Assembly: GCA_016281775.1 (NCBI GenBank)
Contig: JAEEJH010000091.1
Span: 1 to 54,878 of the forward strand
Direction: 5' to 3'
Origin: Clostridiales bacterium
GTDB taxonomy: Bacteria; Bacillota; Clostridia; Oscillospirales; CAG-272
DNA length: 54,878 nucleotides
The translations under genes were made by a program, and so were the position numbers. Under the pieces are notes generated by a model that saw nothing but the letters and a program-made list of their open reading frames with translations, was not told the DNA's origin and searched no databases. Shown here piece after piece: positions 1-17,343 of the stretch. The number at the start of each line of letters is the position of its first letter. Positions within the stretch are counted from its first letter, which is position 1.

Positions 1-312
1 GAAAGTCCCGTCGCGTACATATACAACACGAGAGAAGAGCTTGAAAAGCTGAATATAGACCCCTTTTCCGTTTCGCGCGGAATGGTTGGCCTTATGGCTG
101 ATATAAAGGGCATAGATATCTGGGTCAATTTCACCGAGGTGGAGGACAAGGTATGGTGCGAGCTTCGCTCAAGCAAATACAACATAAATCCCATAGCGGT
201 AAAGTACGGCGGCGGCGGTCATCAGAAAGCGAGCGGAGCTGACGTAGCCGACTTTGCCGAAGCCATGCTTATGCTCGAAGACCTCAAAAAACTTGCGGAG
301 AGTGCATCATGA
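1..312 (+). CDS. DHH/DHHA1 family phosphoesterase (NrnA-like), 5'-truncated by window edge
   Basis: Open frame from base 1 (ESPVAYIYNTREELEKLNIDPFSVSRGMVGLMADIKG...) ending in the DHHA1 motif YGGGGHQKASGADV; overlaps the next paralogue by ATGA. Confidence 0.8.
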   Translation, partial: ESPVAYIYNTREELEKLNIDPFSVSRGMVGLMADIKGIDIWVNFTEVEDKVWCELRSSKYNINPIAVKYGGGGHQKASGADVADFAEAMLMLEDLKKLAESAS

Positions 313-1292
313 ACGAAGAAGTAAAAGAACTTATACTAAAAAAGATCAAAGAATACGAAACGGTCATAATATCGCGCCACAAACGCCCCGACGGCGACGC
401 CGTCGGTTCGACAAAGGGTCTGCACCGGATGATAAGCGCGGCTTATCCCGACAAGCGCGTGTTTCTCGACAATTCAGATTACGCGGCTTATCTTGCGTTT
501 CTCGGCGACGAGGGCGAAAAACCGACCGACGAAGACTACGAAAACGCTCTTGTGATAGTTATAGACACCGGCACCGCCGACAGGATATCGAATCCGCGTT
601 ATGACAAAGGCGCGGAGCTTGTAAAGATTGATCACCACATCGTCGACAGTTCTTACGGCGATATCTGCTGGATCGAGGAGGAACGGTCGTCAGCCTGCGA
701 AATGATCGTCGGTCTGTCCGACAAAACGCTCGCCGGCGCTCTGCCGCTCGATAAAACGTCCGCTTCTTTTCTCTACACCGGCATGATCACCGATTCCGGC
801 AGGTTCCGTTACCGCGGCACGTCGCCCGATACTATGCGCGCCGCCGCTTTGCTGATGGAGCAGGATATAGATACGGAGAGCATTTACGCGAATCTCTATA
901 TGGACGGGTTTGACGCGGTGAAATTCCGCGCCTCGGCGGTCAGAATGATCAAAATGACCGAAAACGGCGTAGCGTATATAAAGATCACGAAGAAATTCCG
1001 CGAGAAGCACTCGCTTACGCTTGAAGAGGCGAGCAATATCGTCTCGGTAATGGATTCGATAAAGGGCAGTCTTATATGGCTTGCATTCATCGAAAACGAC
1101 GATAAGAGTATAAGAGTGCGTCTGCGCTCGCGTTTCGTCGAGATACAGCCGGTCGCGGCAAGATATCACGGCGGCGGTCACGCTTGCTCGAGCGGCGCGA
1201 CGGTTTACAGCGTAAAGGAGCAGAAGGCGCTTTTGAAAGAAGCGGACGAACTGCTCGGCAGATACAAAAAAGAAAACACGGGCTGGATCTGA
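309..1292 (+). CDS. nrnA: DHH family phosphoesterase, NrnA-type nanoRNase/pAp phosphatase
   Basis: ISRHKRPDGDAVGS, VIDTG, KIDHHI and C-terminal HGGGHACSSGATV motifs of DHH/DHHA1 proteins. Confidence 0.85.
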   Translation: MNEEVKELILKKIKEYETVIISRHKRPDGDAVGSTKGLHRMISAAYPDKRVFLDNSDYAAYLAFLGDEGEKPTDEDYENALVIVIDTGTADRISNPRYDKGAELVKIDHHIVDSSYGDICWIEEERSSACEMIVGLSDKTLAGALPLDKTSASFLYTGMITDSGRFRYRGTSPDTMRAAALLMEQDIDTESIYANLYMDGFDAVKFRASAVRMIKMTENGVAYIKITKKFREKHSLTLEEASNIVSVMDSIKGSLIWLAFIENDDKSIRVRLRSRFVEIQPVAARYHGGGHACSSGATVYSVKEQKALLKEADELLGRYKKENTGWI

Positions 1293-1294
1293 CG

Positions 1295-2017
1295 ATGAGG
1301 ATACTGATAACAAACGACGACGGGATAGAGAGTCCGGGTATCGCTTATCTTTCGCTTTGGGCGAAAAAACTCGGCGAGGTGACCGTAGTCGCGCCGAAAT
1401 ATGAGCAGAGCGCCTGCTCGCATACGATCGTTTTGCGCAGACCTTTCGAAGTTAAAGAAAGCCGGCTGTTCGAAGACTCCGGCATAAAAGCTTATTCGAT
1501 AGACGCGTCGCCCGCCGACTGCGTGCGTTTCTCCGCCGAGCAGTACGGCGGATTCGATCTGCTTCTCTCCGGCATAAATCACGGGCTGAACATGGGTTAC
1601 GATATATCGTATTCCGGCACGTGCTCGGCGGCGTTCGAAGGCTCGTTTGCGAACATACCGTCCGTCGCGTTTTCAACCGAGCGCGGATGCCTGGAGCAGG
1701 CCGCGGCGGAACTTGACAGAGTTTGGGATTTCATAACCGAAAACAGACTTCTCGAATACGACTGCGTTTTCAACGTCAATATCGTACCGGATATGAAAGG
1801 GATAAGGATAACAAGACAGGGAGCGACGTTTTACCGCGACAGCTTTGAGCCGTGCGGTACGGATACTTACAAAGCCTCCACCTATATAGCTCACCACTTC
1901 GACGAAGGCGGCGACCCGTATCTCGACATAAACGCGGTGCACGACGGCTACTGCTCAATAACTCCGTTACGGACGAACCGGACGGATACCGTAATTTTCA
2001 AAAAGCTGAAAAGATAA
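1295..2017 (+). CDS. surE: 5'/3'-nucleotidase SurE
   Basis: MRILITNDDGIESPGI...VVAPKYEQSACSHTIVLRRP...SGINHGLNMGYDISYSGTCSAAFEG; start reassigned to the ATG at 1295. Confidence 0.93.
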   Translation: MRILITNDDGIESPGIAYLSLWAKKLGEVTVVAPKYEQSACSHTIVLRRPFEVKESRLFEDSGIKAYSIDASPADCVRFSAEQYGGFDLLLSGINHGLNMGYDISYSGTCSAAFEGSFANIPSVAFSTERGCLEQAAAELDRVWDFITENRLLEYDCVFNVNIVPDMKGIRITRQGATFYRDSFEPCGTDTYKASTYIAHHFDEGGDPYLDINAVHDGYCSITPLRTNRTDTVIFKKLKR

Positions 2018-2021
2018 AAAA

Positions 2022-2051
2022 CGTTCCCGGAAATCATTCCGGGAACGCTTT
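2022..2051. terminator. Bidirectional rho-independent terminator between convergent surE and OB-repeat gene
   Basis: cgttcccggaa-atca-ttccgggaacg stem flanked by an A-run on the left and a T-run on the right. Confidence 0.85.
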
Positions 2052-2063
2052 TATTATGCCGTT

Positions 2064-3707
2064 TTATCTCTTCTTGCCGATAACTATCGCGCAGCCGAGA
2101 GCGGCTATCGCGGTGATCGCCGCTACAGCTACGGCGGCGTCGGAAGTATCGGTATTGTCGGGCTTGTGGTTAGGACCGTATTCTATCGCATCAAGCGTGC
2201 AGGGCTGAGCGAATTCGTAAGTGCCTCTGTGATTCTTCATCGGGCCGGTCACGGTGATCGTATCGCCGATCGCTATCTTGTCGGCGCCTTCGCCTGCAAG
2301 ACGGTAGCAGGTCACAGGTTTGTCTTCGAAACCTTCGACCGTCATCACCACGGTGATGTTCTGGTACTCTTCGCTGTACGCGGTCGTTATCTCTGTGACC
2401 TTGCCTGTAAGCGTATATTCGCCTTTGAGGAATTTGCCGTCTTCGAGAGCGTACAGAGCGTTGAGTATTTCTTCAACCGTCTCGGGGAGCTGTTCTTCTT
2501 CTTTTTCAACGATGGTGAAAGCGAGAAGTTCGCAGTCCTTATCGAACTCGACGACCGTTTCGGTGTATCTCTTCAGTTTGCCGGATACGGTGATTATATC
2601 CTTTTCGGCTATCTTGTCTACGCCGTCGACGCCTGCGCCGTTTTTAAGGCGGAAGCACTGGATCGGATAGTCTTCAAGACCTTCGACGACTATCGTTACG
2701 GTGACGTTGCCGAACTGGGAGTTGTAAGGCGTATCGACGCTGATTATCGTACCGGTGAGCTCGTACGTGCCGTCAAGCGCTTTGCCGACTTCAAGATCGT
2801 ACGCGGCTTTGACTATCTTTTCGGGAGTGTCGAGCACGGGCTGTTCGGGCTCGGTGGCTTTGGGCGTTCTCGCCTCAAGCGTGCAGCCTCTGTCAAATTC
2901 AAACGTAGAGGTGTCTTTGTTCGAGTTATAGAAGTGCTTGAGTACGCCTTTGACCGTGATCGTGTCGCCTTCGGCTATGCTCGCGCATTCGGCGCAGGCT
3001 TCGCTGTTGGTCAGATAGTAGCACTGGATCGGTTTGTCGGTCATCTCGCCGACGACTATCGTGACGGTCATATTCTGTTTGGATTCGTTCCAGGAGTAGT
3101 TGATCTCGGTGACGACGCCGGTAAGGCTGTACGGACCGCCGGGAAGGGTCGCGTTCTTTTCAAGAGCGTAAAGCGCATTTACTATCTCTTCGGGAGTCGT
3201 GTAGGTCGGAGTTTCGGGCTGTTCGGGTTCTCCGGGCTGCGAGCCGGTCGAATCGAGCGTGACCTTCATTTCCACTATACGCGTCTGACCGCTGTCGGGG
3301 TTAGTGAATTTGACCGAGTTTGCGCTGCCGGTCCACGTTCCCGCGGCGTCGCTGACCGCGAAGCTGCCGGAGTTGACGCCGTATTCGAGGGCGTAGCTTG
3401 CAGCCGTGAACGTAAATGCGACAGACAAGATCGCGCTGTCGCTCGATACGGTGAACTCGTTGTTCTTATAGATCCTGGCGGCTTTGCCGTTGTCGTAGTA
3501 CATAGGCGAGTTGCTCGTATTGCTGCCTGAGCCGAACGTGATCTTCACGCCGTCTTTGACAAGCTCGGTCAGAGCTGCTTTGTCTTCGATGCCCATATCG
3601 GCAAACGTGAACGTGACGGTCTTCGTCTCACCGTCGGCGTGAGCCGCGACGAAGATCGCCGAAACGGCCATCACCGCGATGAGAATAAATGCAAGTGCTT
3701 TTTTCAT
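2064..3707 (-). CDS. Secreted, probably membrane-anchored protein with three YhcR-like OB-fold-type repeats
   Basis: Signal peptide (MKKALAFILIAVMAVSAIFVAAHAD), three ~100-aa repeats (PEEIVNALYALEK...LTGVVTEI...VTIVV...PIQCYYL...GDTITVKG...CTL), C-terminal TM helix plus GKKR. Confidence 0.75.
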   Translation of the reverse strand: MKKALAFILIAVMAVSAIFVAAHADGETKTVTFTFADMGIEDKAALTELVKDGVKITFGSGSNTSNSPMYYDNGKAARIYKNNEFTVSSDSAILSVAFTFTAASYALEYGVNSGSFAVSDAAGTWTGSANSVKFTNPDSGQTRIVEMKVTLDSTGSQPGEPEQPETPTYTTPEEIVNALYALEKNATLPGGPYSLTGVVTEINYSWNESKQNMTVTIVVGEMTDKPIQCYYLTNSEACAECASIAEGDTITVKGVLKHFYNSNKDTSTFEFDRGCTLEARTPKATEPEQPVLDTPEKIVKAAYDLEVGKALDGTYELTGTIISVDTPYNSQFGNVTVTIVVEGLEDYPIQCFRLKNGAGVDGVDKIAEKDIITVSGKLKRYTETVVEFDKDCELLAFTIVEKEEEQLPETVEEILNALYALEDGKFLKGEYTLTGKVTEITTAYSEEYQNITVVMTVEGFEDKPVTCYRLAGEGADKIAIGDTITVTGPMKNHRGTYEFAQPCTLDAIEYGPNHKPDNTDTSDAAVAVAAITAIAALGCAIVIGKKR

Positions 3708-3745
3708 TTTATGGCTCCTTTATGTAAATTATATTTTAACCATTA

Positions 3746-6172
3746 TCATTTGATCAGCGTCGCGCCGGTCGTGAATTCATATACCGACTCGTTTCTGTTC
3801 GCGTTGTAGTAGTGGATCAGGTTGCCTTCTATCGTGACCGTATCGTCGACCTTGATATTTTCAACGCCTTCGCCTTTGATCCTGTAAACGGTGACCGGAT
3901 AATCCGCAAGGCCTTCGACGACTATAACGAACGATATGTTTTTGTGTTCTTCGGTATACGCTTCGGTGATGCTCGTGACTTTGCCGGTGAGCCTGTACGG
4001 GTTGCCGGGCAGCGAATCGCCTTTATCGAGCGCGTAAAGCGCTTTGACGATCTCTTCGGGCGTGTTGTATTTGATATTCGTGCCTTCGGCTACGAAGTCG
4101 ATGCTCTTGAGAGTGCAGCCCGCGTCGAATTCGACGGTGCCGTCGGTGTATTTCTTTATCTTGCCTTCAACGGTTATTTTGTCGCCGACTTTGACCTTGT
4201 CAGCGCCTTCGCCTTTCATGCGGAAGCACTGGATCGGATACTGGTCAAGACCGTCGCAGACGATCGTAACGGTGACGTTCTGATAACCTGCGTCATACGG
4301 TGTGTTGACTCTCGTTATCGTACCGGAGAGCGTGTGCGTGCCGTCAAGAGCCTTGCCCTTGTCGAGCGCATAAGCGGCTTTGAGGAGTTTTTCAACGGAA
4401 TCGTCCTTCGGGGGTTCGGTCTCGGCCGGCTCTGTTTCGGCGGGCTGAGTTTCCGCTTCGCCCGAACCGTTTTCTATCTTGTCGAGCGTGCAGTTCGCGT
4501 CGAATTCGAACGTATCGTTATATCTCTTCAAAACGCCGGTAACGGTGATGACGTCGCCGACTTTGAGGTCCGGCGCGCCTTCGCCTTTCATGCGGAAGCA
4601 CTGTACGGGCTTGTCAGCCATATCGCCGACCACTATCGTAACGGTTATATTGCCGTACTGTTCGCTGTATGCGGTGTCGATCTTTGTGATCTTGCCTTTG
4701 AGAGTGAACGTGCCGGGCAGAGCCTTGCCCTTTTCGAGTTTGTAAAGCGCGTTGACTATTTCTTCCTGCGTGAGGTTCGCGGGCATCACGACGACCTTGT
4801 ATTCTTTAGTCTCGGAGAGACTGCCGCAGGTCGCGGTGAGCGTGAGCTTCAGTTCTTCGATGCCGGAGCCGAGCGTGATCACGAGCTTGCCGTTTTCGAT
4901 CTTGGCGGAATCCGCGGGATCAAGCTTCCAGTCGAATTTGACGGCGTCGTAAGTCGCGCCCTGCGCGGGCAGATCGACCGTCAGATCGGCGTTGGTGTTT
5001 TCGGGGATGCTGACAGCCGCTATTTCGTTTGCTAATTTTTCTTCATCCGAAATGTCTGTCGAGGTCACGGTTATACCGCCGACGCACGGATAGATCTGCG
5101 GTTCGTTGTTCCATGCCATCGGACCTTCTATATCGACCGTATAGCCTACGCCGAGTTTGGAGTATTCTTCTTTGAGTTCCGCAACCGTAAACGTGCAGGA
5201 CGTGGAGAGGAAGAGGCTGAAATCAACGCCGTTCTTGGAGACGGTCACGGTGACTCTGCCGTCGCCGGCTTCTTCAAACGTTTCAAAAGTATTCTTTACC
5301 CATTCGATCTTCGTTATTTTTGCGCCTGTCAGCGTGCAGATAACGCCCTGATACTGATCGAGCGCGCTTACGAGATTCGTTTCGGGTTTGAACATATCGT
5401 CAAGCGGTATCTTCTTTACTTCGGCTTTTTTGATCTCGCTGCCGTCGTATACGAGCGAATACGTGCATCCGGCGCCCATTTCACGGAAGCCGTTGTATAT
5501 CGACGTCGTACCGCTTATGACTATGACGTTGCCTATCGCGAGTTTGGTATCGTATTCTTCCTGCGAGTCGCATTTGAGACGGTATCCGAAATATCCGTGT
5601 TCTCCGTCAAGATCCTGGATGAATACGCCGGTATTCTTGTAATCGGGAGCGTAAGGATATTTTGCCACGATGACGCCTCTTACGTTCATCGCCGCGTCTT
5701 TGGTATTTTCAGCCCAGTACGCCCAGTTCGCTATTTCGTACTGTTTGATGACGTACTTGAATGTGATCTCTTTTGAGGTGAGTCCGTTGCCGACTACGTT
5801 GCCTTTTACGGTAAATTCCGTATCCTTATCGGCGTACGGGTCGACTTTGATCAGGACTTTGTTTTCTTCACTGCTGTCGGCGATCGAAGCGAGGCCGTTG
5901 CCGCCTTCGACCGTCCAGTTCACGTCAAGATCGAAACCTTCCTGATCGATGAGCTTTGACGGGAGCGTGAAGGACGAAGAAACCTGGTTATTCTCGCCGG
6001 GTTTGTTGAAGGTGTAGACCATGTCCGCCGCGTTGTCTAACAGCTCCTGCGAGATCTCCGCCTGTTTGGTCGTTTCAGGCGTAGTTTCAACGGGTTTGCC
6101 GCCGTTGCAGGACGTCAGCAAAAGCGCGGAAGCCATAAGCAGCACGAGCAGTACCGATAGTGCTTTTCTCAT
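3746..6172 (-). CDS. Lipoprotein with OB-fold-type repeats and a bacterial Ig-like segment
   Basis: Lipobox (LLTSC), then divergent OB-like domains, a Big-like domain (AVSIPENTNADLTVDLP...), then three repeats homologous to those in the neighbouring gene. Confidence 0.75.
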   Translation of the reverse strand: MRKALSVLLVLLMASALLLTSCNGGKPVETTPETTKQAEISQELLDNAADMVYTFNKPGENNQVSSSFTLPSKLIDQEGFDLDVNWTVEGGNGLASIADSSEENKVLIKVDPYADKDTEFTVKGNVVGNGLTSKEITFKYVIKQYEIANWAYWAENTKDAAMNVRGVIVAKYPYAPDYKNTGVFIQDLDGEHGYFGYRLKCDSQEEYDTKLAIGNVIVISGTTSIYNGFREMGAGCTYSLVYDGSEIKKAEVKKIPLDDMFKPETNLVSALDQYQGVICTLTGAKITKIEWVKNTFETFEEAGDGRVTVTVSKNGVDFSLFLSTSCTFTVAELKEEYSKLGVGYTVDIEGPMAWNNEPQIYPCVGGITVTSTDISDEEKLANEIAAVSIPENTNADLTVDLPAQGATYDAVKFDWKLDPADSAKIENGKLVITLGSGIEELKLTLTATCGSLSETKEYKVVVMPANLTQEEIVNALYKLEKGKALPGTFTLKGKITKIDTAYSEQYGNITVTIVVGDMADKPVQCFRMKGEGAPDLKVGDVITVTGVLKRYNDTFEFDANCTLDKIENGSGEAETQPAETEPAETEPPKDDSVEKLLKAAYALDKGKALDGTHTLSGTITRVNTPYDAGYQNVTVTIVCDGLDQYPIQCFRMKGEGADKVKVGDKITVEGKIKKYTDGTVEFDAGCTLKSIDFVAEGTNIKYNTPEEIVKALYALDKGDSLPGNPYRLTGKVTSITEAYTEEHKNISFVIVVEGLADYPVTVYRIKGEGVENIKVDDTVTIEGNLIHYYNANRNESVYEFTTGATLIK

Positions 6173-6197: not shown

Positions 6198-7541
6198 TCA
6201 ATTAAGAATTTCAGCGTCGGAAAGAGTAAAGAGTTTGAGCTGCGCGCTGCCCTCGTAATACTCGATTATACCTGTGACGTTCATCTTTTTGTTCCGGAAA
6301 TAATCCTCCGTCACGGTTTCGCCGTTGCTCGTGAGCACGGCGGTCCTTACAACGACCGTTTTCTGATTCGCGTCCGAACAGGTGAGAGTCATTGCGCCTT
6401 TGCTCGAAGAGGTCTCGTTGGTCGTCGTATAAACGCTCTTTACCGTGATATTCTCGATCTTTACGAGCGTGTTTTCGAGCGTGGGATCGTTGTTCAGCTG
6501 ATCCGCGCCAATGACGGTCGGCTCGATCTTTACGTCTTTTTCAATTATCTTGACGTCGTCATCGGACGGATTGATAAGCGAGAAAGACAGACCTGATACC
6601 TGAAAACCGAAGTTCTCGTTGTTGTCGGCGGTGCCGGCTATCTGCAGTTTGTACCCGACGACGAGGAATTTCGGAGCGAGCGACGCGTAGCCGCCGTAAA
6701 CGTAAACGCCGTAATACTGCTGAGTGTCTTCGTCGAACGACTGTACGTAGATGCCCTCGCCGCTCTTCTTCGTAACGACGCCTTCAAAACGCACCTTTAT
6801 GCCCGAATAAGACTCTTTGTTGAGCACGAGACTTTTTATAGAGAGATCGACCGATTCGCCGTAATAGAACAGCGGGTCCTTTTTGCCTGAATACAGATTC
6901 AGTCTGTTCGATCTCGCGCTGGTGAGCGCTTCGGTCGCTACGGTGCCGTAACGGTTGGACGAAGTGCTTTTGCCCATTGCGAGCCCTTCGGAGAGTATTT
7001 CTATGTTCAGGTTTCTCCACACGTTACTGCCCTCGTTGCGGTACCATACCCACGCGAGATAGCGATCGCCGGTGGAGTCGAAGTTCGCTTCGCCCTCGGT
7101 ATCGCTTTCGAGAGCGATCTCGGCGGCGTTATTCAGCTTCGTTTTGGTATATACCGACGCGGGTTTGCCCCAGGGCTCGACCTTGCCGGTGGATTCCGGC
7201 GTATCTATCGCCAGAAATCTGATCTTCAATATCTCTGTCTTGCTGTTGTTCCAGAAATGAGCCGTATCGCCGTCGATGCAGAGTTCTACCGTCACCCTGC
7301 CCCGCCCCGTCGCGTTAAAATCGGAATCGAGGTCAGCGGCGTTGAAGTTCACTCTCGTCGCGTAATCGGGCAGCGACGGGTCGCGCTCGTATTCCCAGTT
7401 TCCGTCGACCTGCTCGGTCTGCCGGTCCGTGACCGCCTCCGTCGTTACGTCCGCCGCCGGTTTTTTGACGCAGGACGCAAACACGGCGATAACGGTCAGC
7501 AGAGCGAGGATCAGAGATAATATTTTTAAATAATATTTCAT
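6198..7541 (-). CDS. Secreted thermonuclease (SNase-like) lipoprotein with C-terminal OB-fold-like domains
   Basis: Lipobox (VFASC); VELCIDGDTAHFW, IRFLAIDTPES and TGDRYLAWVWY match staphylococcal nuclease Asp21, Arg35-Asp40-Thr41-Glu43 and Arg87 motifs; downstream segment FEGVVTKKSGEGIYVQSFDE...VVGYKLQIAGT is OB-like. Confidence 0.85.
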   Translation of the reverse strand: MKYYLKILSLILALLTVIAVFASCVKKPAADVTTEAVTDRQTEQVDGNWEYERDPSLPDYATRVNFNAADLDSDFNATGRGRVTVELCIDGDTAHFWNNSKTEILKIRFLAIDTPESTGKVEPWGKPASVYTKTKLNNAAEIALESDTEGEANFDSTGDRYLAWVWYRNEGSNVWRNLNIEILSEGLAMGKSTSSNRYGTVATEALTSARSNRLNLYSGKKDPLFYYGESVDLSIKSLVLNKESYSGIKVRFEGVVTKKSGEGIYVQSFDEDTQQYYGVYVYGGYASLAPKFLVVGYKLQIAGTADNNENFGFQVSGLSFSLINPSDDDVKIIEKDVKIEPTVIGADQLNNDPTLENTLVKIENITVKSVYTTTNETSSSKGAMTLTCSDANQKTVVVRTAVLTSNGETVTEDYFRNKKMNVTGIIEYYEGSAQLKLFTLSDAEILN

Positions 7542-7544
7542 ATT

Positions 7545-8987
7545 TTATTTGTTAAGAGATACGCAGCGGTTATAAGCGTCTTCAAAGAGCTTTTTGAGAT
7601 CCGCGGCGGACGTGCCTTCGGGAGCGGAGATATACGCTACGAGAAGTTCGCCGACCTTGTCACGGGCGTCGGAAGAACCGACGAACGCGGGCGAGGTGAA
7701 ATAATTGCTTTCCTGTTCCATACAGATCTTTGCCGAGAGGGCGGCGATGCCGTCTTTGGTGTAGTTCGCGCCGGCAAGGAATTCCTTATAAGCGTCGAGC
7801 TCGAACGTGGATCTGATTACCGGAACGTAGCCGGAGGTCATCGAGAATTCAGCCTGGAATTCGGGAGAGGTGAGTAAGTACTTGATGAAAAGCCACGCCG
7901 CGTCGTTGACTTTCGAATCCTTCTGAGCGAGCATACAGATCGAAGGTCCCTGAGAAATGACTTTCTTATTCGAGGTGTCAGCCTGAGGTATCTGAGCTAT
8001 GCCGACTTCGAACGGATACGTACCGTCGTCGTTAGCCGAGGGGCACTGATACGTCGCGCCGGCGGACGAACCTATCGAGATATATGAATGGATGACTATG
8101 CCGTCGTCGTTCGGTTTTGTGTTGGTGAACAGACCGGACGTGTACGCGCCGTAGATAGCCTGCGTGGTCATATAACCGTTAAGGAACCATCCGCGGAATT
8201 TGTTTAAGAATTCGGCGTTTTTGTCGTCGTTGAATAAGAAGCGGTCTTCGACCTTTTCAGCAGCCTGAGTATACGGCGTCTTGAGCTGTTCGGTCATGGT
8301 GATGAACCAGTTTGCTTCGGAGTCGTAGCCGAGCGGAATGCTCGTCTTGTCTATTTCTTTTATCTTTTTGATGACGTATTCCATCGAGGTCGCATCGTTT
8401 TCGCCGTTGGCAAACCAGTGATCCGGTACGGAGAGGCCGTTCGCGTCGAAGAACGTCTTGTTATAATACATAACTTCGGTCGATTTGGAGAACGGGAGCG
8501 TATACATCTTGCTCTCGTCGCCGAACGACTTGCCTTCTGCATAGTAACCGCTGATGAAATCGTTCATCTGAGCTTCGGTAAGACCGAACTCGGGGTTCTT
8601 ATCGTTTATGTAAGTATTAAGGTCGACGACCTTTTTGCTGCGCAGATACGTTGCGACGTGGTCGGGATAGCAGTACGCTATAGCCGGCTGTTTGCCCGCC
8701 TGCAGCTCGGTGATGACCTGGTTTCTGACGTCGTCATAACCGCCGACAGACTGTTCGGTGATCGTGATCGTCGGATATTTCTTGTTGAATTCCGCGATAT
8801 ACTTCGTCAGTACCGCGCGGAGGTTCGCGCCCATCGTGTGGTAGAACACCACTTCGACGTTTTCGGGCACTGTTCTCGCCGGATCATCGGTCTTGCCGGG
8901 ATCGTCCGGTTTGGCACCGCATGCGGAGAGCAGCAGACACGACAGTATTGTAGCTGCGAGGATAAGGATTGCTGTGATCTTTCTCAT
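7545..8987 (-). CDS. Extracellular solute-binding lipoprotein of CUT1-type ABC transporter
   Basis: Lipobox (LLLSAC); VVFYHTMGANLRAVLTKYIAEFNKKYPTITIT...YCYPDHVATYL...MYTLPFSKSTEVMYYNKTFFDANGL typical of family 1 (UgpB/MalE-like) binding proteins. Confidence 0.9.
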   Translation of the reverse strand: MRKITAILILAATILSCLLLSACGAKPDDPGKTDDPARTVPENVEVVFYHTMGANLRAVLTKYIAEFNKKYPTITITEQSVGGYDDVRNQVITELQAGKQPAIAYCYPDHVATYLRSKKVVDLNTYINDKNPEFGLTEAQMNDFISGYYAEGKSFGDESKMYTLPFSKSTEVMYYNKTFFDANGLSVPDHWFANGENDATSMEYVIKKIKEIDKTSIPLGYDSEANWFITMTEQLKTPYTQAAEKVEDRFLFNDDKNAEFLNKFRGWFLNGYMTTQAIYGAYTSGLFTNTKPNDDGIVIHSYISIGSSAGATYQCPSANDDGTYPFEVGIAQIPQADTSNKKVISQGPSICMLAQKDSKVNDAAWLFIKYLLTSPEFQAEFSMTSGYVPVIRSTFELDAYKEFLAGANYTKDGIAALSAKICMEQESNYFTSPAFVGSSDARDKVGELLVAYISAPEGTSAADLKKLFEDAYNRCVSLNK

Positions 8988-9021: not shown

Positions 9022-9963
9022 TTAACCTTTGATACCGCTTCTCGATACGCCGCGCATTATGTACTTGCGCAGGAACACGAAGACGAGGAACAGCGGGATC
9101 GATACTATGAATACCGCCGCCATCTGCGCCGGGAAGTTCGTGTCGCCCGCTTCGGTAACGAAGCTGGCGCCGCGCAGACCGTTCGTAATCAGCTTGTGCG
9201 CGTCGTCGTTTGCAACGAGGCGGGGCCAGATATACGCGTTCCAAGAACCCATCATCTTGAGTATCGTTATGGTGATTATGGTCGAGACTGAAAGCGGAAG
9301 CATTACCTTCCACAGATATTTGAAGTCGCTCGTACCGTCGACCTTCGCGGCGAGGTACAGTTCGTTCGGTATCTGCATAAACGTCTGACGCAAGAGGTAA
9401 ATGTAATAGACCGATACGAGCATCGGCACGATAAGTACCGCGAACGTATTCGTTATATCAAGCCAGCTTATCGACTCTTCAAGAAACGGCAGTCTGCCCG
9501 ATACGGTGAGGTAGTTCGTTATCGTGTAAAGCTCGCCCGGTACCATCATAGTTGCCATGAGAGCGCCGAACACTATGCCCTTGCCTTTGAAATTGAGTCT
9601 GGCGAACGCAAACGCCGAAAGCACCGTTACGACGAGCGAAAGCACCGTTGAAACCGCGCCGACGTAGAGCGTGTGCAAAAACAGATCGAGCAGTTTGGCT
9701 TTTTCAAACGCCATGACGAAATTTTCGAAAACTATCTTTTTAGGCCAGAGCGTAGGTACGTTCAGCCTGTATTCCTCCATCGTTTTAAGCGACGAAATGA
9801 TCATCCAGTAAAACGGGAATATCATCATGACCGCCATGAGCGTGAGGAATATGTATATGACCGTCAGTCTTATGATATTTGCGGTCTTCTGATTGCGCAT
9901 CGAGGCGGCTACGTCGATGTCTTTTATGACAAATTCTTTTCTATCAGCCATGACGCACCTCAA
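9022..9963 (-). CDS. CUT1 ABC transporter permease (UgpE/MalG-like)
   Basis: FPFYWMIISSLKTMEEY..., EAA-type loop ELYLAAKVDGTSDFKYLWKVMLPLSVSTIITI. Confidence 0.92.
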   Translation of the reverse strand: MRCVMADRKEFVIKDIDVAASMRNQKTANIIRLTVIYIFLTLMAVMMIFPFYWMIISSLKTMEEYRLNVPTLWPKKIVFENFVMAFEKAKLLDLFLHTLYVGAVSTVLSLVVTVLSAFAFARLNFKGKGIVFGALMATMMVPGELYTITNYLTVSGRLPFLEESISWLDITNTFAVLIVPMLVSVYYIYLLRQTFMQIPNELYLAAKVDGTSDFKYLWKVMLPLSVSTIITITILKMMGSWNAYIWPRLVANDDAHKLITNGLRGASFVTEAGDTNFPAQMAAVFIVSIPLFLVFVFLRKYIMRGVSRSGIKG

Positions 9964-10889
9964 TAATGCACTTTCTTACTGCTCACGTAACCGTTTATCG
10001 CCGTTACGACGAGGATTATCGCGAACAGTATCAGAGACGCCGCCGAGGCGTTGCCGAGATTGCTCTTCGGCAGCATGTTGTAAACGTAACCGACTATCGT
10101 GTTCATCTGCCCGGAAGAACCGGCGGGGCCCATCGTTTCGCCGAATATACCTACGATACTCGAATACTCTTTGAAGCCGCCGATGAACGAGGTGATTATG
10201 ACGTAGGCGAGCATCGGGGAGACGAGCGGCACGGTTATGCGGAAGAACGTGCGCGCTTTTGAGGTCGCGTCGATCTTCGCGGCTTCGTAATACTGCTTGT
10301 TCACGTTCTGCAGACCGCCCATGAGAACGAGTATCTTGAACGGCAGGGCGTGCCAGATTATGTAGGTACAGACGACGAACATATTAGCGCCCCAGGTCGA
10401 GCCGTTGTTGACGAAGTTCACCGGCGATATGCCGAATATTCCGATTATATTGTTGATTATACCCTGCGTTTCGATCAGGTCGCCGACGCCGACGCGCGTG
10501 AACATCGCGTTGAAGACCATGCCTATCGCTATGGAGTTGGTGACGTACGGCAGGAAGAACACCGTCTGATATACTTTCTGCAAAGGTTTTATCGAATTGA
10601 GCGCGACGGCTATAAGCAGCGCGAGCGCCGTGGATATCGGGACCGTTATCACGCAAAGGAGCACAGTATTTTTGAGGTACTGTTTGAAGTCGACGTTGCC
10701 AATGACCGTTTTGAAGTTCTCTATACCGAACTCGAACGTCTCGCCGCCGACTATCGCCAGACCGTTGTAACCGTTGAGAAACGCCATGCGGAACGTGTTT
10801 ATGAGCGGATAAAACGAGAATATCAGCAGAAGCACGAGCGCCGGCGAGAGGTACAGCCAGGCTTTATAGTTGTTCTTTTTGTCCGTCAT
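9960..10889 (-). CDS. CUT1 ABC transporter permease (UgpA/MalF-like)
   Basis: YLSPALVLLLIFSFYPLINTFRMAFLN; EAA loop QYYEAAKIDATSKARTFFRITVPLVSPMLAY. Confidence 0.92.
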   Translation of the reverse strand: MTDKKNNYKAWLYLSPALVLLLIFSFYPLINTFRMAFLNGYNGLAIVGGETFEFGIENFKTVIGNVDFKQYLKNTVLLCVITVPISTALALLIAVALNSIKPLQKVYQTVFFLPYVTNSIAIGMVFNAMFTRVGVGDLIETQGIINNIIGIFGISPVNFVNNGSTWGANMFVVCTYIIWHALPFKILVLMGGLQNVNKQYYEAAKIDATSKARTFFRITVPLVSPMLAYVIITSFIGGFKEYSSIVGIFGETMGPAGSSGQMNTIVGYVYNMLPKSNLGNASAASLILFAIILVVTAINGYVSSKKVHY

Positions 10890-10893
10890 AACG

Positions 10894-11997
10894 TTACCCC
10901 TCTACGTTTATGCGCAGCTCGGTCTCGGCTTCGAAGACGAACACCTTGTTTTTCTTAATATTGAAGCGTACTCTGCCGGTCGCGTCGTGCTTGATGTCGA
11001 TACCGGAATCGACTATCGCGCGTACTGTCTCTTTCTGACATTTTTCATTCTCGAGTATGACCGAGCAGTCGCGGCCCATGACTTCTATGTTGCGCAGGAT
11101 GCCGGAGAACGCTCCGTCCTCGCACGGTATGAAGCCTTCTGGTCTGATAGCGACGTGAACGGGCCTGTCCTGCTGCCCGGGCAACGCCATTATCTCCTCG
11201 TCGCCGATCTTGAGCATGCCGTCTTCGATCTTGCCGTCGAAGACGTTTATAGGCGGCGTGCCGAGGAATTTTGCGACGAAGAGGTTGCACGGATCGTCGT
11301 AAACGTTCTGCGGCTTGCCGATCTGCTGAACGACGCCTTCCTTCATAACGACGATGATGTCGGAGATGCTCATCGCCTCTTCCTGGTCGTGGGTGACGAA
11401 TACGGTGGTTACGCCGGTCTCGCGCTGGATGCGGCGTATCTCTTCACGCGTCTGCAGGCGCAGACGTGCGTCGAGGTTCGAAAGCGGTTCGTCGAGCAGA
11501 AGCACTCTCGGCTCTTTCACGAGCGCGCGCGCTATCGCGACGCGCTGCTGCTGACCGCCGGAGAGTTCGCTCGGTTTTCTGTCCATCAGCTCGTCGATCT
11601 GTACGAGCTTAGCCGCGGCGACCGCTTTTTCAAGCATCTCCTGTTTAGACATTTTCTGCTCGCCCTTCAGGTTCTGCAGCGGGAACAGGATGTTCTGTTT
11701 GACCGTCAGATGAGGGTACAGAGCGTAGTTCTGGAAAACAAGTCCGACGCCGCGATGCTCCGGCTCAAGATGCGTGACTTCTTTTTCCCCGAAAAAGATC
11801 TTGCCTTTTGTAGGCTTCTGCAGACCGCAGATCATATAAAGGGTCGTGCTTTTGCCGCAGCCCGAAGGCCCGAGCAGACCGACGAGCTTGCCGTCGGGTA
11901 TCTCGAAATTGAGTCCGTCGACCGCTATGACCTCTTCTTTGATCTTCTTGTTTCTGTTCGGGAACGCCTTCGTCACGTTTTGAAGTACAATTTTCAT
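10894..11997 (-). CDS. CUT1 ABC transporter ATP-binding protein (UgpC/MsmK-like)
   Basis: Walker A GPSGCGKST, signature LSGGQQQRVAIARAL, Walker B VLLLDEPLSNLD, C-terminal TOBE-like regulatory region. Confidence 0.95.
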   Translation of the reverse strand: MKIVLQNVTKAFPNRNKKIKEEVIAVDGLNFEIPDGKLVGLLGPSGCGKSTTLYMICGLQKPTKGKIFFGEKEVTHLEPEHRGVGLVFQNYALYPHLTVKQNILFPLQNLKGEQKMSKQEMLEKAVAAAKLVQIDELMDRKPSELSGGQQQRVAIARALVKEPRVLLLDEPLSNLDARLRLQTREEIRRIQRETGVTTVFVTHDQEEAMSISDIIVVMKEGVVQQIGKPQNVYDDPCNLFVAKFLGTPPINVFDGKIEDGMLKIGDEEIMALPGQQDRPVHVAIRPEGFIPCEDGAFSGILRNIEVMGRDCSVILENEKCQKETVRAIVDSGIDIKHDATGRVRFNIKKNKVFVFEAETELRINVEG

Positions 11998-12020: not shown

Positions 12021-12779
12021 TTAATAGGTTTCTTCTTCTCTTTTCAGCTGCTTCTGCTTTTCGATATACGCGTCACGCTCTTCGGCCGTATCGAATATCA
12101 TCTGGCTGCCCCAGTCGACGGCGACCGTATCGGCTATAACGTCGTGCAGGAATCTGCCCGGACCGAGTTTCACGAGGGAGAACACCTCGCCCGCGGCGAA
12201 AACCGCTATCAGCACCCAGCCGAACAGCCCGGTAGCGCCCGTTATGACGGAGAGAAACGTCAGTATCGGCAGAATGAATTCCATAACTCCTTTGCCGATG
12301 ACGTTGCGCACGAAGATTATCGGGGCCGACGCCCGCGTGAAGCCGGTGCGCATCACGCCGAGACCGAACAGCCGCTTGCCGAGCGATCTGCCGTCTTTCA
12401 ATATCACCGGTATGATAAACTCAAGAAGCAGAGTCGATCCGAAAACGCCGCCGGAGAGTATGACGAACGTCAGTATCAGATACGTTCTCATCGCCTCGTT
12501 CGCTTCTTCGTCGGCGTTCATGGCGTCGACGGCTTCTTTATAATGAGTTTTTTCTTCGTCGGTCATTTTGGAATACGCTTCTTCGTCGGTCGAGTAATCG
12601 ACGCCGTACCGCTCTTCGTATTCGGCACGGACAGCGTTATATCTGTTCAGATATCCGTCGGTATCCAGAACGCTTGCAAACAAAAGATACAGACCGACCG
12701 TCAGCATTGCGGCGACGACGAAATCGGCAAGGAAAGCGAACATCCTTTTCGCGTACGGGGCTTTCTGCAGATCGATCAT
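12021..12779 (-). CDS. RDD family membrane protein
   Basis: MIDLQKAPYAKRMFAFLADFVVAAMLTVGLYLLFASV...DGRSLGKRLFGLGVMR; a strong RBS (GGAGG) precedes the ATG at 12779, so the longer ORF start at 12863 is less likely. Confidence 0.75.
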   Translation of the reverse strand: MIDLQKAPYAKRMFAFLADFVVAAMLTVGLYLLFASVLDTDGYLNRYNAVRAEYEERYGVDYSTDEEAYSKMTDEEKTHYKEAVDAMNADEEANEAMRTYLILTFVILSGGVFGSTLLLEFIIPVILKDGRSLGKRLFGLGVMRTGFTRASAPIIFVRNVIGKGVMEFILPILTFLSVITGATGLFGWVLIAVFAAGEVFSLVKLGPGRFLHDVIADTVAVDWGSQMIFDTAEERDAYIEKQKQLKREEETY

Positions 12780-12895
12780 TTCAGCCCTCCGCGCGGTCTT
12801 CGGCAAAAAGATAAAAAGACGGTCTTTCAATATTGAGCCTTTATCCGTCATACCGAAGATCACCGCCTTTTCGCACGTGTATTATATTTACTGTA

Positions 12896-12924
12896 ATGAT
12901 AACATACTCTCAAAATCATGTCAA
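12896..12924 (-). promoter_or_regulatory. Sigma-A-type promoter of the leftward RDD-ABC-nuclease-OB operon
   Basis: On minus strand: TTGACA - 17 bp - TATCAT. Confidence 0.65.
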
Positions 12925-13035: not shown

Positions 13036-13059
13036 AAGAAAAAAACAGGAGATTTGAAT

Positions 13060-13728
13060 ATGCAGATCAAGGATATTTTATCAAAAGTCGATCATACCCT
13101 TCTCGCGCAGAACGCGACGTGGGAGCAGATCAGGCAGATATGCGACGACGGAATGAAATACGGTACGGCCTCGGTTTGTATCCCGGCTTCTTACGTCAAA
13201 GCCGCTAAGGATTACGTCGGCGATAAACTCGCCGTATGCACTGTCATAGGATTTCCGAACGGCTATTCGACCACGGCGGTCAAGGTCTTTGAGACCGCCG
13301 ACGCGCTTCAGAACGGCGCCGACGAGATCGATATGGTCATCAACGTCGGCTGGCTGAAAGACAAAAAATACGACGCGCTGCTCGGTGAGATAAGAGCGAT
13401 AAAAGCCGTATGCGGCGATAAGATCCTCAAAGTCATAATAGAGACGTGCCTGCTCACAGACGAAGAAAAAATTAAAATGTGCGAGATCGTCTCCGAATCG
13501 GGCGCGGATTACATCAAGACCTCGACCGGCTTTTCAAAAGGCGGAGCGACTAAAGAAGACGTCGCGCTCTTCGCCGCTCACGTTGCTCCTCATCTGAAGA
13601 TCAAAGCCGCCGGCGGAATCTCGTCGCTGCAGGACGCGGAAGATTTCATTAATCTCGGCGCTATGCGTCTCGGCACGAGCAGAATAGTCAAAATAGTCAA
13701 AAATATGCCCGAAGACTCGGGTTATTGA
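13060..13728 (+). CDS. deoC: Deoxyribose-phosphate aldolase
   Basis: [24 protein letters not shown]...[17 protein letters not shown]...[13 protein letters not shown]...[14 protein letters not shown]...KAAGGI; aggag RBS upstream of the ATG at 13060. Confidence 0.95.
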
Positions 13729-13740
13729 TAGGAGAAAAAT

Positions 13741-14472
13741 ATGAATTATCCGACTCCTCACATAAACGCGGCCCCTGAGGATTTCGCCGATACCGTGCTT
13801 ATGCCGGGCGATCCTCTGCGCTCGAAATTCATAGCGGAAAATTTCCTGACCGGCGCGAAGCTCGTCAACAACGTAAGAGGCATACAGGGTTATACAGGTA
13901 AATATAACGGCGTGCCGGTATCGGTCATGGCGAGCGGTATGGGTATGCCTTCGATAGGTATTTATTCTTACGAGCTGTTCAATTTCTTCGGCGTGTCGAA
14001 CGTCATAAGAGTCGGCTCCGCCGGAGCGATGACGGCCGACGTGAAGGTGCGCGAGATAGTAATGGCCGAAGGCGCCTGCACCGATTCGAATTACGCGGCG
14101 CAGTTCCGTCTGCCGGGCGCGTACGCTCCGATCGCCGATTTCGGTCTGCTCTCCAAAGCGGTAAAATTCGCCGACGAAATGAAGCTTTCTTACCACGTCG
14201 GCAACGTTCTGTCGTCCGACCGCTTTTACGGCGACGACGGCGATCTGCCGGAAAATATGAGATCGGCGGCGCTGTGGAGAAAAATGGGCGTTTTAGCGGT
14301 CGAGATGGAGAGCGCGGCGCTTTATATGAACGCGGCGCGCGCCGGCAAGCACGCTCTCGGCGTTTTCACGATATCCGACAGCCTCGTCACGGGCGAATCG
14401 ACGAGCGCCGAAGAACGCCAGAACACCTTCACCGATATGATGGAGCTCGCGCTCCGCGTTGCAACGACGTGA
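13741..14472 (+). CDS. deoD: Purine-nucleoside phosphorylase (DeoD type)
   Basis: VLMPGDPLRSKFIAENFL...VNNVRGIQGYTGKYNGVPVSVMASGMGMPSIGIYSYEL...VIRVGSAGAM. Confidence 0.95.
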   Translation: MNYPTPHINAAPEDFADTVLMPGDPLRSKFIAENFLTGAKLVNNVRGIQGYTGKYNGVPVSVMASGMGMPSIGIYSYELFNFFGVSNVIRVGSAGAMTADVKVREIVMAEGACTDSNYAAQFRLPGAYAPIADFGLLSKAVKFADEMKLSYHVGNVLSSDRFYGDDGDLPENMRSAALWRKMGVLAVEMESAALYMNAARAGKHALGVFTISDSLVTGESTSAEERQNTFTDMMELALRVATT

Positions 14473-16040
14473 TGAAGCGCGTATTTCTGATAGTTCTCGA
14501 CAGTTTCGGCATAGGCGCGGAGCCGGATGCCGACAGATTCGGCGACGTCGGGACAAATACCCTCCGCTCGATATCACGTTCGGATCATTTCAGGATCGAT
14601 AACTTAAAAAAAGCGGGGCTATGCGATATTGAAGGCGTCGATTTTCTGTCCGGCTTTGCCGGTCATTACGGCGCGGTCGGCAGACTGCGCGAAGCGTCGG
14701 CGGGCAAAGACACGACGATCGGGCACTGGGAAATAGCGGGACTTATCTCGCCTTCACCGATGCCGACGTATCCGCACGGTTTTCCCGACGACGTGATCGC
14801 GGCGTTTTCGGCATCCGTCGGCCGCGGAGTGCTCTGCAACCTGCCGTATTCGGGCACAAAGGTCATTGAAGAATACGGCGAAGAGCACATGAAGACGGGC
14901 AAGCTGATCGTCTACACGAGCGCGGACAGCGTATTTCAGATCGCGGCGCATGAAGATATCGTCCCCGTTGAAGAGCTTTATGATATTTGCCGCAAAGCGA
15001 GAAGCATACTTAAAGGCAGACACGCCGTCGGCAGAGTTATCGCGAGACCTTTCAAAGGCGGACCGGGCGGGTTTTACCGTACGGAGAACCGCCGCGATTT
15101 TTCGCTCGAACCGACCGGTACGACGCTTCTCGACGAGTTGAAAAAAGCCGGGCGCGACGTGATCTCGGTCGGCAAGATACGCGATATCTTCGCCTCGCGC
15201 GGCGTGACCGAAGCGGTCGTCACTCACAACAATACAGAGGGAATGGCGGCGGCGCTCGAATTGCAGAAACGCGATTTCAACGGTCTGTGCTTTGTGAACC
15301 TCGTGGATTTCGATATGCTATACGGACACCGCAACGACGCAGACGGCTATGCGAAAGCCATAGCCGCATTCGATGAATGGCTGCCCGGTTTCGTATCCGG
15401 CATGAGAGAAGGCGACGCGCTCATAATCACCGCCGATCACGGCTGCGATCCCGGCGATATAAGCACCGATCACACGAGAGAGTACGTTCCCATGATAGCC
15501 GTCGGCAAGAGTATAAAACCCGTTAATTTGGGCACGAGAAGCACTTTTGCAGACGTTGGAGCGACCGTCGGCGAAATGCTCGGAGTTAAATGCGATATAA
15601 GCGGAAAGAGCTTTTATATGGAAATAACAAGCGAAAATAAAGTATACGCCGATCTTATGAACAGAGCCGAAGCGGCGAGAAACAATTCCTATTCTCCCTA
15701 TTCCGGCTTCTCGGTCGGGGCGGCTCTGCTCTGCTCCGACGGCAAGATTTACGAAGGCTGCAACATCGAAAACGCGTCGTTTTCGCCCACGATCTGCGCC
15801 GAGCGGACCGCGATATTCAAGGCGGTCTCGGAAGGCGAACGTGAATTCGAGGCGATAGCGATATCCGGCGGCAGACACGGCGAGATATCCGACACGTGTT
15901 CGCCGTGCGGAGTATGCAGACAGGTGATGACCGAATTCTGCGGCGCCGGTTTCAAGATCGTTTTAAGAACGGAAAACGGGATAAAAATACTCACGCTCAA
16001 AGAACTTATGCCGCTCTCGTTTACGAAAGGAGAACTCTGA
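14472..16040 (+). CDS. Phosphopentomutase-cytidine deaminase fusion (DeoB-Cdd)
   Basis: Single uninterrupted frame: N-term MKRVFLIVLDSFGIGAEPDA...TTIGHWEIAGL...ITADHGCDP (DeoB), C-term SYSPYSGFSVGAALL...GCNIENASFSPTICAERTAIFKAV...PCGVCRQVMTEF (Cdd). Junction near 15620-15640. Confidence 0.9.
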   Translation: MKRVFLIVLDSFGIGAEPDADRFGDVGTNTLRSISRSDHFRIDNLKKAGLCDIEGVDFLSGFAGHYGAVGRLREASAGKDTTIGHWEIAGLISPSPMPTYPHGFPDDVIAAFSASVGRGVLCNLPYSGTKVIEEYGEEHMKTGKLIVYTSADSVFQIAAHEDIVPVEELYDICRKARSILKGRHAVGRVIARPFKGGPGGFYRTENRRDFSLEPTGTTLLDELKKAGRDVISVGKIRDIFASRGVTEAVVTHNNTEGMAAALELQKRDFNGLCFVNLVDFDMLYGHRNDADGYAKAIAAFDEWLPGFVSGMREGDALIITADHGCDPGDISTDHTREYVPMIAVGKSIKPVNLGTRSTFADVGATVGEMLGVKCDISGKSFYMEITSENKVYADLMNRAEAARNNSYSPYSGFSVGAALLCSDGKIYEGCNIENASFSPTICAERTAIFKAVSEGEREFEAIAISGGRHGEISDTCSPCGVCRQVMTEFCGAGFKIVLRTENGIKILTLKELMPLSFTKGEL

Positions 16041-16041
16041 A

Positions 16042-17343
16042 ATGCGGATGTACGATATCATACAGAAAAAACGCGAAGGACTTGAGCTTTCGGTCGACGA
16101 GATAAAGTTTTTCGTTTCGGGATATACGAAAGGCGAGATACCCGACTATCAGGCGTCCGCTCTCTGTATGGCGATATGCTTCAACGGCATGACCGACGCC
16201 GAGACCGCCGCGCTCACCGAGGCGATGATGAGATCGGGCGACGTTATCGATCTTTCGCGTTTCGGAAATCTGTCGGCAGACAAGCACAGCACCGGCGGAG
16301 TGGGAGACAAAACTTCTCTGATCGTCGCGCCGACGGCGGCGGCGCTCGGAGTGAAAATGGCTAAAATGTCGGGCAGAGGTCTCGGGCACACCGGCGGCAC
16401 CGTCGACAAGCTCGAATCGATACCGGGGTTCAAAACGACGTTGTCGGGCGAAGAATTCATGGATACTGCCGATAAAGTCGGCATATGTCTTGTCGGGCAG
16501 AGCGCGCATCTTGCGCCCGCCGACAAAAAACTTTACGCGCTGCGCGACGTTACCGCGACGGTTGACAGCATACCGCTGATCGCCTCGTCCATAATGAGCA
16601 AAAAGCTCGCCGCGGGCGCGCATTCGATAGTGCTTGACGTCAAATGCGGCAGCGGCGCGTTCATGAAGACGGAAAAGGACGCGAAAAAGCTCGCCGAGAC
16701 GATGATCGCGGCCGGCAAGGCGCACGGCAGAAACGTACGCGCTCTGATAACGAATATGGATATACCGCTCGGTACGGCGGTCGGCAACGCGCTCGAGGTC
16801 GCCGAGGCGGTAAGCGTGCTCAAAGGCGAAAAACGCGGCGATATTTACGATATCTGCGTCGAGCTCGCTTCAAACATAGTTTCGATGGTAAAAGAGATAA
16901 CGACCGGCGAAGCCCGCGCGCTCGTCAAAGACTGCGTCGGCTCTGGCAGAGCTTTTGAAAAAATGAAAGAGTGGATAGGCGCGCAGGGCGGCGACGTATC
17001 GTATATCGAAGACACGTCGAAGCTGTTCGGCAGGTATTGCAAACGCGAGATCAAAGCCGCGCAAAGCGGATATATCAGCGCGATGAATACGGAACAGATC
17101 GGCATCACCGCTTCTCTGCTCGGCGCCGGACGCATCAGGAAAGAAGATACGATAGATATGTCCGCCGGGCTTGAAGTGTTCAAAAAGACCGGCGACAGAG
17201 TCGGCGCCGGCGACGTGATAGCCGTTATGTACTCTTCGGACGCGTCAAGATTCGATAACGCGGAAAAAACTTATTTATCCGCGCTCACATTTTCCGATCT
17301 GCCCGTCGAAAAACCCGGGCTGATATTCGGTGTGATCTCGTAA
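16042..17343 (+). CDS. pdp: Pyrimidine-nucleoside (thymidine) phosphorylase
   Basis: MYDIIQKKREGLELSVDEI...DKHSTGGVGDKTSLIVAP...KMSGRGLGHTGGTVDKLESIPGF. Confidence 0.95.
   Translation: MRMYDIIQKKREGLELSVDEIKFFVSGYTKGEIPDYQASALCMAICFNGMTDAETAALTEAMMRSGDVIDLSRFGNLSADKHSTGGVGDKTSLIVAPTAAALGVKMAKMSGRGLGHTGGTVDKLESIPGFKTTLSGEEFMDTADKVGICLVGQSAHLAPADKKLYALRDVTATVDSIPLIASSIMSKKLAAGAHSIVLDVKCGSGAFMKTEKDAKKLAETMIAAGKAHGRNVRALITNMDIPLGTAVGNALEVAEAVSVLKGEKRGDIYDICVELASNIVSMVKEITTGEARALVKDCVGSGRAFEKMKEWIGAQGGDVSYIEDTSKLFGRYCKREIKAAQSGYISAMNTEQIGITASLLGAGRIRKEDTIDMSAGLEVFKKTGDRVGAGDVIAVMYSSDASRFDNAEKTYLSALTFSDLPVEKPGLIFGVIS

Follow-up and report, generated by a model that had tools for sequence, protein, structure and literature searches.

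In a Clostridiales bacterium (CAG-272; assembly GCA_016281775.1), an operon of eight genes was recognised on contig JAEEJH010000091.1, the 54,878 nt of which are referred to below as the window, and this operon probably serves as a nucleic-acid scavenging system. Its last two genes encode the neighbouring exported proteins OB_A (A547) and OB_B (B808), which carry three oligonucleotide/oligosaccharide-binding (OB) repeats each. The repeats are real and their reading as OB folds is right; a disulfide bond within them, proposed in a preliminary description of this DNA, is weak, and the important result is the operon, from which the repeats take their likely meaning. Since OB modules, a surface nuclease and an ATP-binding cassette (ABC) importer are encoded together, this rumen-type bacterium probably captures, cuts and eats environmental DNA or RNA. 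The OB-fold lipoproteins are the probable capture modules, and it is somewhat more likely than not that the OB repeats themselves bind DNA or RNA strands.

The predicted operon has the order RDD, ATPase, two permeases, solute-binding protein (SBP), staphylococcal-type nuclease (SNase), OB_B and OB_A, with the OB genes as its tail. All eight genes lie on the same strand, separated by -4 to 38 bp, and several of them are preceded by a clear GGAG-type ribosome-binding site. The first gene has a promoter-like site ahead of it, and the last is followed by a strong hairpin. The SNase matched PF00565 (E 4.1e-10), and residues D90, D92, R108, E116 and R160 were invariant across 14 relatives, with D or N at position 113. 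In relatives outside the genus, Asn often takes the place of Asp at this metal-ligand position (DTPE to NTPE), a change that may affect the metal dependence. The SBP is a UgpB-like protein of the SBP_bac_8/SBP_bac_1 class that also matched the NCBIfam P68 lipoprotein family (E 2e-13), below the cut-off of that family. No structured RNA was found over the Rfam threshold in the window.

Conservation of the operon was assessed in the best 80 of 488 stretches encoding SNase relatives, which were obtained from a scan of 85,462 GTDB genomes (species-level loci of named genomes; each gene was counted only where the sequence reached far enough). Ruminant and gut Clostridia made up most of the hosts, alongside some Spirochaetales, Sphaerochaetaceae and Bacilli; one host was a Mollicutes metagenome-assembled genome, Phil14 (L092), with the same operon order. 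Across the 80 loci, the order RDD-ATPase-PermF-PermG-SBP-SNase was kept almost without exception, and the SBP (66/66), the permeases (61/61 and 60/61), the ATPase (61/61) and the RDD protein (54/54) were found nearly everywhere. The gene after the SNase encoded an OB_B/OB_A homologue in 60 of 70 loci and carried OB repeats in 40 of these 70. Within the genus, the SNase was present in 7 of 12 genomes and the OB repeats in exactly the same 7. When 297 genomes were drawn evenly from the order, the SNase was found in 9, the repeats in 8, both in 7 and neither in 287 (Fisher p 8e-12), and in the 7 genomes with both, the SNase and the repeats lay close together on one contig.

The six repeats of the window were mutually homologous, as the preliminary description had claimed for two neighbouring exported proteins with three repeats of about 100 aa each: both open reading frames are in place, and all 15 pairs of repeats matched in BLASTP (36-58% identity over ~100 aa, E 5e-21 to 7e-41). 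The claim of export likewise agreed with a lipobox (LLTSC, Cys22) in OB_B and a Sec signal peptide in OB_A. The C-terminus of the latter protein is further marked by a hydrophobic segment and a sorting-like motif (DTSD in the window, PxTGD in several relatives), and one sortase is encoded in the genome. Besides its repeats, OB_B contains two mixed beta domains at residues 150-260 (a weak ExeM/NucH match) and 267-371. Among relatives, the number of repeats ranged from 1 to 6 per protein, and orthologues at the same locus had 3, 4 or 5, which bears out the earlier suggestion of copy-number evolution. Some best matches between repeats ran across the two genes (A2-B2, 58%; A3-B1, 58%), so the repeat duplication is partly older than the gene pair, or repeats have crossed between the genes.

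The OB fold that had been proposed for the repeats was supported by profile matches and structure prediction. For a single repeat with 30 relatives, AlphaFold2 gave a five-stranded barrel with the strand order of an OB fold (pLDDT, the predicted local distance difference test score, 94.3; strands at 24-38, 43-49, 58-64, 76-85 and 98-103, with a helical turn between the third and fourth). The Pfam family PF01336 was matched over the gathering cut-off by OB_B (E 7.8e-12, 45.4 bits against a cut-off of 27) and just below it by OB_A (25.7 bits), and 15 of 30 single repeats matched it at E<=0.01. When the single-repeat model was searched with Foldseek, all of the 50 best matches were lysyl-tRNA synthetase (LysRS; query TM 0.55-0.62, E from 6.6e-5), an enzyme that contacts the tRNA anticodon through its N-terminal OB domain. 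The model of the whole OB_B protein (pLDDT 85) showed the three repeats, the two further beta domains and immunoglobulin (Ig)-like parts; its best structural match was the p204 HIN tandem OB-dsDNA complex (E 1e-8), and many Ig domains were matched as well because of the Ig-like parts. A sequence search of the repeat profile against solved structures returned only RPA/STN1, all below the threshold (best E 0.21). Conserved aromatic residues and R/K/N were located at the strand 1-2 loop, in strand 3 and at the strand 4-5 loop, which would correspond to the usual ligand-binding places of OB folds.

Further secreted nucleases were found at the OB genes of relatives (L numbers denote related loci). 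A DNA/RNA non-specific endonuclease (E 5e-20) directly follows the OB gene in L081, matches to barnase-like RNases, below the Pfam cut-off, occupy the same operon position in L082, L089, L090, L093 and L130, and OB repeats and an Endonuclease I (E 4e-21) are joined in one chain in L143. These nucleases tie the repeats to nucleic-acid breakdown by more than adjacency alone. The L081 nuclease (L081:13753-16236) is secreted and combines a dockerin with an Ada-type metal-binding match; judging by these domains, it may be carried on a cellulosome-like scaffold.

The operon of the window is flanked by NrnA and SurE, convergent on one side, and by DeoC, DeoD, DeoB-Cdd and a pyrimidine-nucleoside phosphorylase, divergent on the other. 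Together, the operon and these salvage genes could cover the entire path from the polymer into central metabolism within 17 kb. NrnA and/or SurE lay within 8 kb downstream of the operon end in 36 of 53 loci. NrnA is present as two tandem paralogues beside SurE in L037:14455-16379 and in most loci that have it; the window has one copy, near the contig edge. Adjacency of deo genes was rejected as a general feature, given 9 of 40 long loci, and in those members of the genus for which contigs were read, deoB-cdd was on another contig or contig region than the operon. Most members of the genus share the DeoB-Cdd fusion, which also turns up in scattered genera of the family and of the order (full-length matches, for the most part with 56-63% identity); in other relatives, deoB and cdd are two separate genes. 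The coordinates of all features are collected in Table 1.

Table 1. Positions in the window of the operon, its OB repeats and the adjoining genes.
Feature	Position	Strand	Remark
NrnA-type DHH/DHHA1 oligoribonuclease/pAp phosphatase	309..1292	+	
SurE 5'/3'-nucleotidase	1298..2017	+	
Terminator-like hairpin	2017..2052	.	16-bp stem, between convergent surE and OB_A; from sequence
OB_A, 547 aa, exported	2064..3707	-	N-terminal domain of unassigned type, three OB repeats, C-terminal hydrophobic anchor
OB_A repeat 3	2178..2480	-	residues 410-510
OB_A repeat 2	2514..2828	-	residues 294-398
OB_A repeat 1	2868..3197	-	residues 171-280
OB_B, 808 aa, lipoprotein	3746..6172	-	two further mixed beta domains, Ig-like parts, three OB repeats
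OB_B repeat 3	3749..4063	-	residues 704-808; without both Cys
OB_B repeat 2	4094..4399	-	residues 592-693
OB_B repeat 1	4472..4771	-	residues 468-567
SNase lipoprotein	6198..7541	-	surface thermonuclease with DUF5689-type C-terminal domain; catalytic residues conserved
ABC solute-binding lipoprotein, UgpB-like	7545..8987	-	profile matches
ABC permease, UgpE/MalG type	9022..9963	-	profile matches
ABC permease, MalF/UgpA type	9960..10889	-	profile matches
ABC ATPase, UgpC/MalK type	10894..11997	-	profile matches
RDD-family membrane protein	12021..12863	-	first gene of predicted operon; conserved 54/54
Sigma-70-like promoter	12896..12924	-	TTGACA-17-TATCAT with TG extension, upstream of operon; consensus match only
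DeoC deoxyribose-phosphate aldolase	13054..13728	+	
DeoD purine-nucleoside phosphorylase	13741..14472	+	
DeoB phosphopentomutase fused to Cdd cytidine deaminase	14466..16040	+	524 aa
Pyrimidine-nucleoside phosphorylase (pdp)	16042..17343	+	

Based on these genes, a route of nucleic-acid use can be proposed. Membrane-anchored OB_B and wall- or membrane-anchored OB_A would hold DNA or RNA at the surface by means of their OB arrays. The SNase lipoprotein, which has the catalytic residues, would then cut the strands into short pieces with 3'-phosphates, the product type of the SNase family, and its DUF5689-type region may also touch the strand. The UgpB-like SBP and the ABC importer would bring in nucleosides, mononucleotides or very short oligonucleotides. 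Inside the cell, NrnA would trim nano-oligonucleotides and SurE would strip phosphates, after which DeoD, pyrimidine-nucleoside phosphorylase, DeoB, Cdd and DeoC would yield bases, acetaldehyde and glyceraldehyde-3-phosphate. Ugp-like ABC parts with NrnA and SurE alongside would fit an importer of phosphorylated nucleotides or very short oligonucleotides; that the importer takes up phosphorylated products is put forward tentatively, and nucleoside uptake is equally open. With similar reserve, the whole might be pictured as a widespread nucleic-acid utilisation locus resembling a polysaccharide utilisation locus, in which tandem extracellular OB capture arrays serve a UgpB-type importer of phosphorylated mono- or oligonucleotides that are finished inside by NrnA and SurE, rather than of nucleosides dephosphorylated outside.

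Several points weigh against this reading, and those that concern the repeats can be considered together with a rival that retains nucleic-acid scavenging and casts the OB repeats as spacers or as modules for protein-protein contacts, holding the nuclease in place or docking to the wall of the cell. With a median pI of 4.4 and a charge of about -6, the repeats are acidic, a property that lends no support to non-specific polyanion binding; the SNase (pI 4.7) and the SBP (pI 4.8) are acidic too. About 40% of the next-gene proteins have no recognisable OB repeats, and a spacer role would fit both this absence at many loci and the variable copy number. Large secreted proteins encoded outside the operon also carry the same repeats, together with dockerin or F5/8C domains (L054, L055, L056, L145, L144, L148, L151), and no recognised nuclease or other catalytic domain was found in these proteins; the idea that OB repeats are specific to the operon was thereby ruled out, and they may be general surface modules. 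On the other side, the fold is nearest to nucleic-acid-binding OB domains, the conserved aromatics and R/K/N appear to lie at the usual OB ligand sites, and the nuclease activity of ExeM needs its OB-containing region (PMC6085458), so the spacer explanation is possible and not the one we favour.

The other points against nucleic-acid scavenging concern the importer and the flanks. The nearest families of all four ABC parts are the Ugp (glycerol-3-phosphate, glycerophosphodiester) and Mal groups, and the SBP of the operon did not qualify as a Bmp/PnrA-type nucleoside binding protein. NrnA and SurE are widespread housekeeping enzymes, and the deo genes adjoin the operon only in the minority of loci given above. 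The Ugp/Mal matches of the SBP, permeases and ATPase would suit an ordinary sugar or glycerophosphodiester importer, with the nuclease and OB proteins as unrelated surface proteins in the same operon; such an arrangement is improbable, given that the SBP stands beside the nuclease in all 66 genomes, from several classes and phyla, that additional nucleases occupy the same operon position in relatives, and that nucleotide and nucleoside catabolism genes lie on both flanks. A role in biofilm-DNA remodelling, evasion of host DNA traps or natural transformation instead of nutrition is more improbable still: streptococcal and mycoplasma surface nucleases do act on traps (PMC4118848, PMC12115388) and Riemerella transformation needs a DUF5689 protein (PMC8459023), but the operon has a dedicated ABC importer and adjoining salvage genes, its hosts are mostly gut and rumen bacteria, and the locus has no competence genes.

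The cysteines of the repeats were also analysed. As previously described, five of the six window repeats have both Cys (QCY, QCF or TCY, and the terminal CTL or CEL), and the last repeat of OB_B has TVY and GAT at the two places. Extra Cys are present in OB_A repeat 1 (two, 238 and 241) and in OB_B repeat 2 (one, 639). The survey took in the window repeats and those of related loci, 225 distinct ones in total, and 214 were scorable: both Cys were present in 181, the first only in 16, the second only in 10 (26 single in all) and neither in 7. The association of the two positions gave a Fisher p of 6e-4, which is optimistic because the repeats are related, and in a scan of mutual information with average product correction the pair ranked 563 of 4189. 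One position falls within strand 3 and the other immediately ahead of strand 5, and these strands are neighbours in the OB barrel. Neighbouring strands and associated Cys thus speak for the suggested disulfide, whereas the 26 single-Cys repeats, against 7 with neither, and the low coevolution rank weaken it as the main story, and it is plausible only. The joint loss that had been taken to indicate it is seen in the last OB_B repeat, a single case.

One of the closest known systems is the SNase-ABC "nucleotide transporter" operon of mycoplasmas (MAG_5030-5070; MBOVPG45_0307-0311; Mhp379, MslA/P80), which, like the window, pairs a surface SNase lipoprotein with a binding lipoprotein and an ABC importer of carbohydrate type. 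In M. agalactiae, the genes for the P80 binding protein, the SNase and the ABC parts are co-transcribed (PMC3585158). The M. gallisepticum homologue MslA, the homologue of P81, is reported to bind ss and dsDNA and was proposed to pass oligonucleotides to the nuclease (cited in PMC4045577). Co-transcription and nuclease activity are shown for the mycoplasma operon (PMC3585158, PMC4045577); the transcription unit of the window is predicted from the short gaps and the conserved order. In comparison, the window adds the DUF5689-type SNase tail, the downstream OB lipoproteins, the upstream RDD gene and the adjoining NrnA/SurE and deo genes, and its operon is hosted by gut bacteria with larger genomes. 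The window SBP matches the P68 family below the cut-off, with no P80/MslA family match shown, and the OB proteins stand in a comparable place.

The DNA-degradation loci of Izemoplasmatales contain nucleases, phosphohydrolases and ABC transporters, and those of strains zrk13 and zrk29 are induced by DNA or DNA/RNA (PMC8289736, PMC8397711, PMC10470597); the nucleic-acid locus of zrk29, with NrnA and ABC transporters, is DNA/RNA-induced (PMC10470597). Judged by their described gene content, these loci resemble the window in bringing together extracellular nucleases, a 3'-5' nuclease or NrnA, phosphohydrolases and ABC transporters. Unlike the window, they are reported with LTD/EddB-type proteins and phosphate transporters, and OB repeats are unmentioned in those papers. 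The window operon is similar in layout to the mycoplasma and Izemoplasmatales systems, has SNase and ABC parts in common with them and would work in a like manner. OB folds are coupled to secreted nucleases in YhcR, ExeM and NucH as well, and OB_B has a weak match to the ExeM N-terminus (E 3e-4); in the window, however, the OB domains form tandem arrays in separate lipoproteins beside the nuclease gene. RPA, POT1 and HIN domains likewise have OB barrels in tandem on a single chain, whereas the window proteins are extracellular and bacterial and have no significant sequence similarity to them (best E 0.21). The open-licence literature yielded no nucleic-acid utilisation locus with such a layout from the rumen or gut. 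The novel elements relative to the known systems are the arrays of OB folds, the RDD and DUF5689 parts as fixed components, and the distribution across gut Clostridia.

The contents of the rumen and gut are rich in DNA and RNA, and to our knowledge little is known of the anaerobes that feed on them or of their means of doing so. The conserved operon would mark a nucleic-acid diet in about 80 named genomes of Clostridia, Spirochaetes and Mollicutes, and it offers a defined nuclease, capture proteins, an importer and an intracellular route. It also joins two literatures, that of the mycoplasma nucleotide operon and that of the sediment DNA-degrader loci, and its OB proteins offer a possible answer to the question of how long strands are held on bacterial surfaces.

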